DNA of 36,046 nt from Vicinamibacteria bacterium (GTDB lineage Bacteria; Acidobacteriota; Vicinamibacteria; Vicinamibacterales; JAENWD01): the NCBI GenBank assembly GCA_016650245.1, contig JAENWD010000174.1, positions 1-36,046 on the forward strand. Direction: 5' to 3'. Position 1 is the first letter of the stretch. Each line of letters begins with the position of its first letter. The translations under genes were made by a program, and so were the position numbers. Shown one piece after another: positions 11,887 through 25,060 of this stretch. A model generated the notes under the pieces. The model saw only the letters and a program-made list of their open reading frames with translations. It searched no databases and had not been told where the DNA came from.

Positions 11887-11906
11887 GGCGGAACTTCAGT
11901 TCCGCC
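11887..11906. repeat. Palindromic repeat element with acgtagg flank
   Basis: Arms ggcggaact and agttccgcc with a 2-base loop, preceded by ggtacgtagg. A very similar palindrome (gccggaact-N2-agttccggc followed by ctacgtac) is at 22616-22635 in the opposite orientation, so this is a dispersed REP-like element. It sits between the porin operon and the small-gene island. Confidence 0.7.
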
Positions 11907-21703: not shown

Positions 21704-22609
21704 TTGCCTGCCGCCACCGTCACCATCTTCTGGATCGTTCAGGCCTCGGCGCTGCTCGTCTTCACGGTGGCGTTTCGCTGGGAGCTGGCAGGCCTCTGGG
21801 CGGCCAGTCATTTCCTGCGCGCCATCGGCCTGACGCTCGCCTTCCATCGCTATTACGCCCACCGCGCGTTTCAGATGAACCGCATCGCGCGCTTCTTCTG
21901 GACGCTGGCCGGCACGGCGGCGATGCAGAAGGGGCCGCTCTGGTGGGCGGGACATCACGTCTACCACCACAAGTACGCCGACCGCGACGGCGATCCGCAC
22001 AGCCCGAAGATGAGCGGGTTCTACCACGCGCACTTCGGCTGGTTCCTCAACGACAGCCGTTACAAGTCGCTGCACCCGTCCAACCCCGTCGTCCGGGTGT
22101 TCGGCAGCGCGCCCGAGATCGTGTGGCTCGAGCAGTTCTACTTCCTGCCGCCGCTGGCGCTGGCGCTGTCGATGTACGGCATCGGCGGTTGGGACTGGCT
22201 CGTCTGGGGCTTCTGCCTGCCGACGATGACGCTGGCGCACGCGACCTTTGCGATCAACACGGTGAATCACCTGTTCGGGTCGCGCCGGTTCCAGACGCAG
22301 GACGACTCCACCAACAACCCGCTCACGGCGTTGTTCGCGGTGGGGGAGGGCTGGCACAACAACCACCACCGCTATCAGCGCGCCGCGCGCAACGGCTTCT
22401 ACTGGTGGGAGTTCGATGTAACGTGGTACACGATCTGGGCGATGGAGAAACTCGGCCTGGCCTGGGACGTGCAGCAGGTCCCAGAACGCGTCTACCGGGA
22501 AGCCAGCGACGGTCTGCCCGCCCGCCACGAGTCTACGTACGCCAGTCACGAGTCTACGTACGCCAACCACGGAGACACGGAGATCACAGAGACGGCACAG
22601 AGTTTCTAG
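21704..22609 (+). CDS. Acyl-CoA/fatty-acid desaturase
   Basis: A 301-residue integral membrane di-iron desaturase that would introduce a cis double bond into fatty acyl chains. The His boxes are all present: HRYYAH (48-53), HHVYHH (84-89), NTVNHLFG and EGWHNNHH (H218, H221, H222). Membrane segments are at about 8-45, 63-80 and 145-185. The start is a TTG 9 bp after the preceding stop and I see no better one. The final 29 residues (from ARHESTYASHESTYANHG onward) are encoded by a 21-bp direct repeat and an inverted-repeat element, so the natural C terminus was probably near residue 272. The extension lies beyond all catalytic motifs. Confidence 0.93.
   Translation: MPAATVTIFWIVQASALLVFTVAFRWELAGLWAASHFLRAIGLTLAFHRYYAHRAFQMNRIARFFWTLAGTAAMQKGPLWWAGHHVYHHKYADRDGDPHSPKMSGFYHAHFGWFLNDSRYKSLHPSNPVVRVFGSAPEIVWLEQFYFLPPLALALSMYGIGGWDWLVWGFCLPTMTLAHATFAINTVNHLFGSRRFQTQDDSTNNPLTALFAVGEGWHNNHHRYQRAARNGFYWWEFDVTWYTIWAMEKLGLAWDVQQVPERVYREASDGLPARHESTYASHESTYANHGDTEITETAQSF
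22526..22565. repeat. 21-bp direct repeat within desaturase 3' end
   Basis: Two identical 19-bp copies (cacgagtctacgtacgcca) at 22526-22544 and 22547-22565. Because the spacing is 21 bp, the repeat is in frame and produces the peptide HESTYASHESTYAN. Confidence 0.85.
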
Positions 22610-22709
22610 GGGGGTGCCGGAACTGAAGTTCCGGCCTACGTACGTCGTACCCCAAGAAGTTCTCTGTGCGTCCTCTGTGTCCCCGGTGTCTGCGGTGGTT
22701 GGCGTACGT
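22556..22709. repeat. 154-bp inverted-repeat element between convergent genes
   Basis: Perfect 14-bp outer arms (acgtacgccaacca at 22556-22569, tggttggcgtacgt at 22696-22709) continue inward as imperfect arms with cacggagacacgg and cacagagacggcacagag on the left, mirrored by ctctgtgcgtcctctgtg and ccggtgtctgcgg on the right. The centre holds a second palindrome, gccggaact-N2-agttccggc (22616-22635). It fills the space between the desaturase and an ABC permease and includes the desaturase stop. It could act as a bidirectional terminator or be a nonautonomous mobile element. Confidence 0.8.
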
Positions 22710-22712
22710 GAT

Positions 22713-23879
22713 CTATGCGTCGCGAAGCGCGGCGGTGATCGGCGTGCGTGCGGCGCGGAGGGCGGGCAGCAGGCCGCCGATGAGGCCCATGAAGACGGCC
22801 GCCACGACCGCGATGACGAGCCACTGCGGGTCCACCTTGAAGGCAAACGCGATCTGCGAGAAGTTGGCCCCGCCGGTGGCGCCCGACAGCGTGTTGATCG
22901 GCAGCGCGAGGACGCTGCCCAGCAGGCCGCCGACGAGCGCGAGAAACGCCGACTCGATCATGAACGACACGAGGATCGACGTGCGCGAGAAGCCCAGCGC
23001 CCGCAGCGTGCCGATCTCGCGCGTGCGTGCCGACACCAGCGCATACATCGTGTTCATCGCGCCGAACACGGCGCCGATACCCATGATGACGCCCACAAAC
23101 ACCGCCAGGATGGTCAGCGTCGTCGCGGTCTGGCCGGCCTGGCCCTCGTAGAACTGCAGCTCGCTCATCATCTGAACCTGCATGTTCGGGTTGGCCTTGA
23201 GGTCGGCGTTGAACTTCTCGATCTGCGCCGAGTCGTTCAGCTTGAGTGTGAGTGACTGGTAGCCGCCGGCCCGGTTGAACACCGGCGCCAGCGCGTCCAC
23301 GTCGCCCCAGATCTCGCTTTCGAAGCTGCTGCCGTCCGACGTGAAGATGCCCACCACCTTCCAGTTTTGCCGCTGCAGCTTGATGCTGCCGCCGACTTCG
23401 AGGTTCTGGTAGCGGTCGGCCGCCTTCTGCCCGACGACGATCTCGTAGAGCCCCGGCGTGAAGTTGCGCCCGGCGACGATCTTCACGTTCTGGCGGACCT
23501 GGAACGCCATCGGCGAGACGCCACGCACGGTGACGTTGACCTCGGTGCCGTCCCCGAGACGCGGAATCGAGGCCACCACGATCATCTCCGGCGAGGCCAG
23601 CGGCCGGCCGGTGCTGTCGCGCTTCACCCGGTCGTCCACCAGGATCGTGCTCGCGTTGTCCTTGCTGAAGCCGGAGGTGAGTTCCGACCCTGAGCCGCGC
23701 TGGGTGACGATGGCATTGTCGGGCGAGCCGGTGGACTTGAGCGCCACCCTGAAGCCGTTTGCCATCGCGGTGAGCGCGATCAGGACCGCGACGACCAGCG
23801 AGATGCCGGCCAGCGCCAGCAGGGTGACTCTCCAGCGGACGATCACGTTGCGGAAGTTGTACGAGATCGGGATCGCCAT
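22713..23879 (-). CDS. ABC transporter permease, MacB/FtsX family (second permease)
   Basis: A 388-residue inner-membrane permease. TM1 lies at about 20-42 (LLALAGISLVVAVLIALTAM), followed by a MacB-type periplasmic domain (about 50-255) and three C-terminal helices typical of FtsX: ATTLTILAVFVGVIMGIGAV, IGTLRALGFSR then VSFMIESAFLALVGGLLGS, and LVIAVVAAVFMGLIGGLLPALRAAR. The start ATG at 23879 overlaps the stop of the preceding permease gene (ATGA). A longer open frame upstream is only the shadow of that gene. With its sister it should form a heterodimeric permease. Confidence 0.93.
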   Translation of the reverse strand: MAIPISYNFRNVIVRWRVTLLALAGISLVVAVLIALTAMANGFRVALKSTGSPDNAIVTQRGSGSELTSGFSKDNASTILVDDRVKRDSTGRPLASPEMIVVASIPRLGDGTEVNVTVRGVSPMAFQVRQNVKIVAGRNFTPGLYEIVVGQKAADRYQNLEVGGSIKLQRQNWKVVGIFTSDGSSFESEIWGDVDALAPVFNRAGGYQSLTLKLNDSAQIEKFNADLKANPNMQVQMMSELQFYEGQAGQTATTLTILAVFVGVIMGIGAVFGAMNTMYALVSARTREIGTLRALGFSRTSILVSFMIESAFLALVGGLLGSVLALPINTLSGATGGANFSQIAFAFKVDPQWLVIAVVAAVFMGLIGGLLPALRAARTPITAALRDA

Positions 23880-25060
23880 CAGACCTGCCTCAGCATCGAC
23901 GTGATGTTCGCGCGATAGGCGCCCACCGCCGGCGCCAACCCCGAGATGAGGCCCATCGCAGCGCCGACGGCAAACATGCCGGCGGCCAAGCCGGCCGACA
24001 TGGCTACCGAGCCGAAGCCCTGCAGGCCCGGAATGGACCCGAGGTTGCCGATCAGAGTGCTGGCCATCAGCACGCCGAGGCCGCTGCCGAGCAGTCCGAT
24101 GACCAGCGCCTCGCCCAGCACCAGCGCGAGCACCAGGGCGGACGGGTAGCCCAGCGTCTTGAGCACCGCTATCTCCGTGCGCCGCTCGCGGATGGCCATG
24201 CTCATCGTGTTGGCTGTGACCAGCAGGATCGTGAAGGCCACGGCCATGCCGATGGCATTCAGGATGAGGCCGAGATCGCCGACGAGCGCGAGGAAGCTCG
24301 CGACAAACTGCGCCTCGGTCTCGGTCTTGGTCTGCGTGTCGCTGTTCTCGAAGGTCGAGTCCACGGCCTTGGCGATCGCGGCGGCCTGTGAGGGGTTGGC
24401 GATCTGCAGACTGTAGGTGCCCACACCCGCCCGCTGGCCCGTCTTCTCGTAGAGGTACTTCCAGTGGAACAGCATCATGTCTCGGGCGTGATTCGGGTAC
24501 TTCTGGGTGTCGACGGAATAGATCGCCCGCACCACGAACTCGAAGGGCTTGTCGGCCCGGTAGGGCGGAATGATGCTTTCGAGCTGAAACGTGCTGCCGA
24601 TCTTCCACCCGTATTTCTCGGCCAGCGCCGGCCCGATGATCGCACCGCGCATGTCCTGCATGAACGCCTGCTTGTCGGCGTCGGTGAGGCCGTACTCGGG
24701 GTACATCGCCAGGTACGGCTCGGCGTCCACCGCGAAGTTGGCGAAAAAGTTCCTCATGTCCGGCTGGCCGCCGCTCGAGCCCATCACGCCGCCAAACCAG
24801 TTGGTCTTGGCCGTCCGCTTCACGCCGGCGATGGCGCCGATGCGCGCCTCGTAGGCCATCGGCAGGTCTTCGGCCAAGCTGATGCGGTGGCGCGTGATCA
24901 GCCGGTCGGTGGCTGCCGTGTCGATGGTGCCGTAAAAGGCGGCCAGCACGGTCTGCAGCGAGGCGATGAGGAAGATGCAGAGCGCCATGGCCGCAATGGT
25001 GCTCGCGGTCCGAATCCAGTTCTTCCGCAGGTGTTTCAAGATGTATGGCAGGTATTTCAT
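23879..25060 (-). CDS. ABC transporter permease, MacB/FtsX family (first permease)
   Basis: A 393-residue permease starting MKYLPYILKHLRKNWIRTAS at 25060. TM1 is about 17-40 (STIAAMALCIFLIASLQTVL), a periplasmic MacB-type domain of about 220 residues follows, and the FtsX region has NAIGMAVAFTILLVTANTM, AIRERRTEIAVLKTLGYPS, LVLGEALVIGLLGSGLGVL and a last helix ending GLISGLAPAVGAYRA. The RRTEIAVLKTLG motif is the coupling helix that contacts the ATPase. The open frame upstream of the ATG is heptad repeat DNA, not coding sequence. It is 49 bp from the ATPase gene. Confidence 0.94.
   Translation of the reverse strand: MKYLPYILKHLRKNWIRTASTIAAMALCIFLIASLQTVLAAFYGTIDTAATDRLITRHRISLAEDLPMAYEARIGAIAGVKRTAKTNWFGGVMGSSGGQPDMRNFFANFAVDAEPYLAMYPEYGLTDADKQAFMQDMRGAIIGPALAEKYGWKIGSTFQLESIIPPYRADKPFEFVVRAIYSVDTQKYPNHARDMMLFHWKYLYEKTGQRAGVGTYSLQIANPSQAAAIAKAVDSTFENSDTQTKTETEAQFVASFLALVGDLGLILNAIGMAVAFTILLVTANTMSMAIRERRTEIAVLKTLGYPSALVLALVLGEALVIGLLGSGLGVLMASTLIGNLGSIPGLQGFGSVAMSAGLAAGMFAVGAAMGLISGLAPAVGAYRANITSMLRQV

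Follow-up and report, generated by a model that had tools for sequence, protein, structure and literature searches.

What is the palindromic sequence that fills the gap between two convergent genes of a Vicinamibacteria bacterium, and how did one of those genes come to end inside it? The question was raised by a first-pass annotation of the window, the whole stretch of 36,046 nucleotides analysed here (contig JAENWD010000174.1, positions 1 to 36,046), which described an inverted-repeat element captured by a desaturase gene. The reading that we prefer, with a probability of roughly 0.6, is that the element belongs, as a non-autonomous and MITE-like member, to a family of elements that carry a GxxExxY gene and insert at stop codons.

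The window element and its neighbours

The full copy with its caps, as defined by repeat and fold analysis and an alignment of 116 ends, is an arm-loop-arm structure of 162 bp (22552..22713, no strand assigned). The left cap and arm (22552..22602, plus strand) read GTCTA CGTACGCCAAC followed by CACRGAG units, and were assigned to arm type X. The right cap and arm (22664..22713, minus strand), read inward, consist of GATCA CGTACGCCAAC and CACRGAG units, and were assigned to arm type Y. A single strand of the whole element folds far beyond its shuffles (z of -8.35 as DNA and -9.18 as RNA), and the outer arms are perfect, as first annotated, over 15 bp rather than 14 (22556-22570 / 22695-22709), while the longer arms are imperfect. 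Together with the dispersal described below, this bears out the existence of the element. The palindrome annotated within the loop (GGTGCCGGAACTGAAGTTCCGGCCTACGTAC..., 22612..22648) was also found again and is a second dispersed repeat, with a match elsewhere in the genome at C18:5897. The same palindrome, GCCGGAACTGAAGTTCCGGCCTACGTAC, was seen at window position 11887 (minus strand) and at L068:2103.

The element contains neither a transposase gene nor a GxxExxY gene, and its only coding sequence is the tail read in from the neighbouring ORF. It matched no Rfam family and no promoter was found at it; an intrinsic terminator was ruled out, as the stem is not followed by a T run. On its far side is the ORF of a MacB/FtsX-type permease (22713..24608, minus strand), whose C-terminal FtsX domain is complete and whose TAG stop overlaps the end of the element by one base.

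On the near side is a fatty acid desaturase gene (PF00487; 21704..22609, plus strand), whose reading frame ends at the TAG at 22607-22609. Terminal units and the element together encode its residues 275-301, so that the element-derived end annotated as the last 29 residues is right in kind and 27 residues long. The in-frame 21-bp direct repeat (HESTYAS/HESTYAN), also seen in the first pass, consists of extra tandem copies of the element's terminal unit (CACGAGTCTACGTACGCCA; 22519..22551, plus strand). For 22 homologues (66-76% identical), drawn from 22 genomes of the same order, the alignment mostly stops at about residue 264-276; these proteins share ...GLAWDVQ.VP.RIY.EA and then continue into unrelated native tails, often ending LELAEDAEPV. 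After this common core the window desaturase reads SDGLPAR HESTYAS HESTYAN HGDTEITETAQSF, and from HESTYAS on the sequence is that of the terminal units and left arm. Four weak alignments extend further, without identity to the HESTYAS/HESTYAN repeat. The tail is thus not conserved, as it would have been had the annotation been mistaken on this point, and since the homologues' tails differ and that of the window protein is encoded by the element, the native tail was replaced.

Dispersed copies and GxxExxY genes

The genome to which the window belongs (4.26 Mb in 448 contigs, assembly 91% complete) contains 57 forward and 59 reverse ends that match the cap-and-arm pattern, and none that match a control pattern. 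Extraction from fetched genome regions gave about 58 full copies, plus solo halves; a single copy would have refuted the first-pass idea of an element. Most copies are about 110-156 bp long between cap positions. The 116 aligned ends define a cap G[A/T][T/C]CACGTACGCCAAC (also given as G[A/T][T/C]CACGTACGCCAACCAC) followed by CACRGAG units, and the amplified form carries the cap GATCACGTACGCCAAC or close variants. In at least about a dozen copies one end is accompanied by an additional terminal unit (a loose pattern gives 18, a few of them likely chance matches), and the 21-bp repeat in the window is one such case. Among the 58 copies no excess of target-site duplications of lengths 2-9 stood out, so that a check proposed in the first pass came out negative, and the family is called MITE-like rather than filed as a MITE for this reason.

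Some copies depart from the common form. Solo and decayed halves were seen at L079, L087, L095, L107 and other loci, and two loci, L089 (C256:807-955) and L077 (C5:15664), have the family cap but not the usual interior (ACCTTGGGAACTGACGCAGACGGCCTCGGG... instead), which gives the impression of a cap fused to some other repeat. Across the 58 copies the A/G positions of the CACRGAG units (arm columns 14, 31, 35, 42) are anti-correlated between the left and right arm of each copy, with about one mismatch per unit and a random direction, while in other phyla the arms agree. This is possibly an avoidance of perfect palindromes, and is unexplained.

The arm pattern was found at at least 118 loci in about a dozen phyla. 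The matches listed include Acidobacteria, Planctomycetes, Verrucomicrobia, Chloroflexi, Cyanobacteria and Armatimonadetes, as well as Elusimicrobia, Hydrogenedentes, Bacteroidetes, Proteobacteria, Cloacimonadota and a Diapherotrites bin. Individual bins may be contaminated, but this cannot explain the overall spread. These copies have variable loops, and their caps are mostly TTCAC, TTAAC or TGAAC. Neither capped arms nor confirmed GxxExxY relatives were found in viral contigs. The first-pass annotation was correct that the arms resemble repeats of several environmental phyla. The arms are not of low complexity, however, and form the termini of a defined family of elements carrying GxxExxY.

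A GxxExxY gene lies between the arms at one locus (L150) and in part at another (L157), and among 30 GxxExxY loci sampled within the phylum the arms often stand just outside the gene. By a fixed test, inward arms flank the gene on both sides in 13/27 GxxExxY loci and on at least one side in 20/27; about half of the loci are without paired arms. The same test found an outward pair in 0/27, arms at 0/23 desaturase loci, and 0/540 in a random model; an association with four-helix-bundle genes (TIGR02436) was rejected, as it was absent from all of their loci (0/27). The test pattern was written after inspection of the GxxExxY loci, so the controls count for more than the p value. At the level of 199 genomes, GxxExxY is present in 37 of the 44 with arms versus 36 of the 155 without (p about 3e-13, a guide only, the genomes being related).

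The GxxExxY family (PF13366 PDDEXK_3 / TIGR04256) is assigned by Pfam to the PD-(D/E)XK superfamily and is a predicted nuclease, with nearly invariant catalytic D, ExK and QxxxY positions in the alignment. An AlphaFold model was too poor for use (pLDDT 42, two sequences). Queries whose first three residues are not the real ones returned no PDB relative by sequence and no PADLOC family.

Five GxxExxY genes are present in the bacterium's own genome, in an assembly that is 91% complete, and none is enclosed by the capped arms of the window family; for this reason the mobiliser of the family was not identified. One of the five, on C184, is followed by a related short copy, which begins about 10 bp after the stop. 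In another genome of the same order (G001), a GxxExxY cassette (L394) and short copies have the common cap GATCACGGGCCACAGAG, which is close to the GATCACGTACGCCAACCACAGAG of the window's own genome.

The gap between two genes of one genus, named sufD and sufS from their sequences and not from annotation, holds the element in many states. A full arm-GxxExxY-arm element stands right behind the sufD stop in seven genomes (G197, G256, G254, G095, G261, G246, G251), and in G271 it is internally deleted with the start of GxxExxY kept. Decayed remnants remain in G218 and G241, arms-only forms in G166 and G270, and single-arm scars in G253, G258 and G266, while the gap is without an element in G158 (12 bp) and G225 (41 bp). 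The series shows how arms-only copies originate and that the site is polymorphic, though not the direction of every change. It could reflect vertical inheritance and decay rather than repeated insertion. In other species of the genus (L275-L294) different small genes occupy the gap, which is suggestive of a hot spot. These are genes that we take to be short ribbon-helix-helix-like ORFs, a YhcG/DUF1016-like nuclease and a DUF4160/DUF2442-like pair.

It is also possible that GxxExxY is mere cargo and that something else moves the element. In one such account the gene, a passenger or one for a homing-type nuclease, would have invaded palindromic repeats that already existed and that another enzyme spreads. 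Such an account would accommodate a repeat family without a capped GxxExxY copy in the bacterium's own genome, and the 7 of 44 arm-positive genomes that have no GxxExxY at all. It sits poorly with the internal-deletion intermediates, which keep parts of the GxxExxY frame between their arms, and with the genome-level association, and we consider it unlikely, though by no means negligible.

Position behind stop codons

At 61 of 104 testable ends in the bacterium's own genome, an open frame of 100 codons or more terminates no farther than 16 nt outside the cap, as against 3-5% for controls shifted by 200-400 bp (p about 2e-17). The frames are open reading frames and not the output of a gene caller, and individual assignments may therefore be in error. 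The stop lies at exactly -6 or -7 from the cap in 36 of the 61 adjacent ends, and by a slightly wider criterion 24/49 copies have stops on both sides. The same adjacency was seen again in G191, and in a cross-phylum sample it is weaker (30/195 versus 2-3% in the control). A plasmid record of Bacteroides finegoldii (L395:1395-1960) has arms and GxxExxY directly behind the TAG stop of radA, with the next start a few nucleotides past the right arm.

The narrowness of the peak at -6/-7 speaks for something beyond selection alone. Part of it may consist of stops formed at the junction, since a TGA or TAG can be completed with the G that the cap contributes, as happens for the TAG of the permease. 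Whether placement reflects directed insertion, selection in dense genomes, or both remains open. The desaturase is a case in which the frame runs on through the terminal units, unlike most copies, which abut stops; the word captured is fitting in that the tail is read from the element, and its emphasis is partly wrong for the family.

Selection alone is what a functional repeat of the REP/BIME kind would require, with copies serving as two-way terminators, protectors of mRNA 3' ends or supercoil sites and placed by selection, not by insertion preference. The very stable fold and the location at gene 3' ends, between convergent genes, would suit it. There is no terminator-like T run, and arms of this kind enclose a gene family across phyla. 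Contrary to selection for a hairpin, two arms from one copy are less alike than arms from different copies, by more than chance, which rules out selection for a perfect hairpin. We regard this account as distinctly unlikely.

The position behind stops also recalls an RNA-level parasite like the intervening sequence (IVS) of 23S rRNA, a stem-loop with an ORF that would move through RNA to sites behind the stop codons of messages. Known IVSs have stem-loop borders around a small ORF and are sporadically present (PMC4990558); the GxxExxY elements share that layout, with complementary borders, an element of about 430 nt and a small ORF, and their insertion point appears to be set by the message and not by DNA sequence. 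No reverse transcriptase or RNA intermediate has been shown, and four-helix-bundle genes are without these arms. IVSs lie in rRNA helices and CACRGAG elements do not; the window element in particular lies between protein genes with no S23p/four-helix-bundle ORF inside, and was not identified as an IVS. We give this account little credence.

A REPIN-type element moved by RAYT, a Y1 transposase, is very improbable, even though the element is palindromic, dispersed and gene-flanking and its genome has three Y1_Tnp genes, because 0/3 of those loci have paired arms (which speaks against RAYT as the mobiliser), only one degenerate cap match was seen there, and the arms associate with GxxExxY instead.

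A proposed origin and comparison with known systems

We return to the preferred reading, a MITE-like derivative of GxxExxY elements. The gene-bearing form would consist of an arm of CACRGAG units, one GxxExxY gene and an inverted arm; internal deletion would yield arm-loop-arm copies, one form of which would have been amplified to about 58 copies in this genome. Elements would insert at or right behind stop codons, by preferential insertion and not only selection, as we infer, so that the host gene still works and a convergent gap is often filled exactly. At the desaturase, the junction would have fallen inside the native 3' end, with translation through the terminal units into the left arm, a stop in the loop, and replacement of the native tail. 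The GxxExxY nuclease is inferred to recognise the arms, drive movement and act in trans on short copies, and the simplest driver that we can infer is that this protein cleaves at the arms.

The copy number, the ends, the stop adjacency and the association of GxxExxY with the arms have been demonstrated, as have the occupied, empty and internally deleted states of a single site within one genus and the shared caps in a genome of the same order. Against the preferred reading stand the lack of a target-site duplication, the fact that no movement has been observed, and the unidentified mobiliser of the window family.

A broader proposal is possible but tentative, and we would put it at rather less than an even chance: GxxExxY elements may represent a novel, very small kind of mobile element distributed over many phyla. 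A single protein of about 120 residues of the PD-(D/E)XK type would carry DNA (or its RNA copy), delimited by hairpin arms of CACRGAG units, to sites that stop codons determine, and short derivatives would account for the palindromic repeats of many environmental bacteria. The family is apparently widespread and undescribed. In the literature that could be reached, nothing on GxxExxY-arm elements under other names was found; subscription papers and preprints were not covered, and a prior description is not excluded. One paper that names the family presents GxxExxY as a gene beside a reverse transcriptase and does not regard it as mobile. A literature search by arm sequence gave one match, a primer reading AACTCTGTGTTCTCTGTGGTG beside the invertible capsule promoter of Bacteroides fragilis, which contains the arm sequence CTCTGTGTTCTCTGTGGTG (PMC3090145).

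These results link the GxxExxY family to a repeat across bacterial phyla and to an insertion pattern tied to stop codons, and so offer a testable role for a large protein family known only by its motif name. Should insertion prove to be directed, the elements would do no harm as guests within operons (sufD-sufS, leuC-leuD) or downstream of genes like radA, and would offer a model of how mobile DNA can be targeted while genes stay intact. In the window copy one also sees how a protein can acquire a new tail from an element of this kind.

Among known families, the GxxExxY genes themselves lie between inverted CACRGAG arms at many loci, and a matching cap is found on short copies in a genome of the same order; the window copy has the inverted arms, the cap and the stop-codon position of the proposed family but not its gene, and is classed as a non-autonomous derivative. 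Like MITEs, the window family is short and non-coding, with inverted ends, tens of dispersed copies and, to judge from the cap shared in G001, a possible gene-bearing relative with similar ends; unlike them, it has no target-site duplication that could be found, and its presumed mobiliser is a predicted PD-(D/E)XK protein and not a classical transposase. It shares palindromic repeats at gene 3' ends with the REP, REPIN and BIME sequences associated with RAYT, but has another sequence, longer arms of CACRGAG units and no link to RAYT genes here. Finally, GxxExxY elements resemble the 23S rRNA IVS with its S23p/four-helix-bundle ORF in their stem-loop borders around a small ORF and their sporadic presence (PMC4990558), whereas TIGR02436 loci are without these arms and the GxxExxY-arm elements stand behind the stop codons of protein genes.
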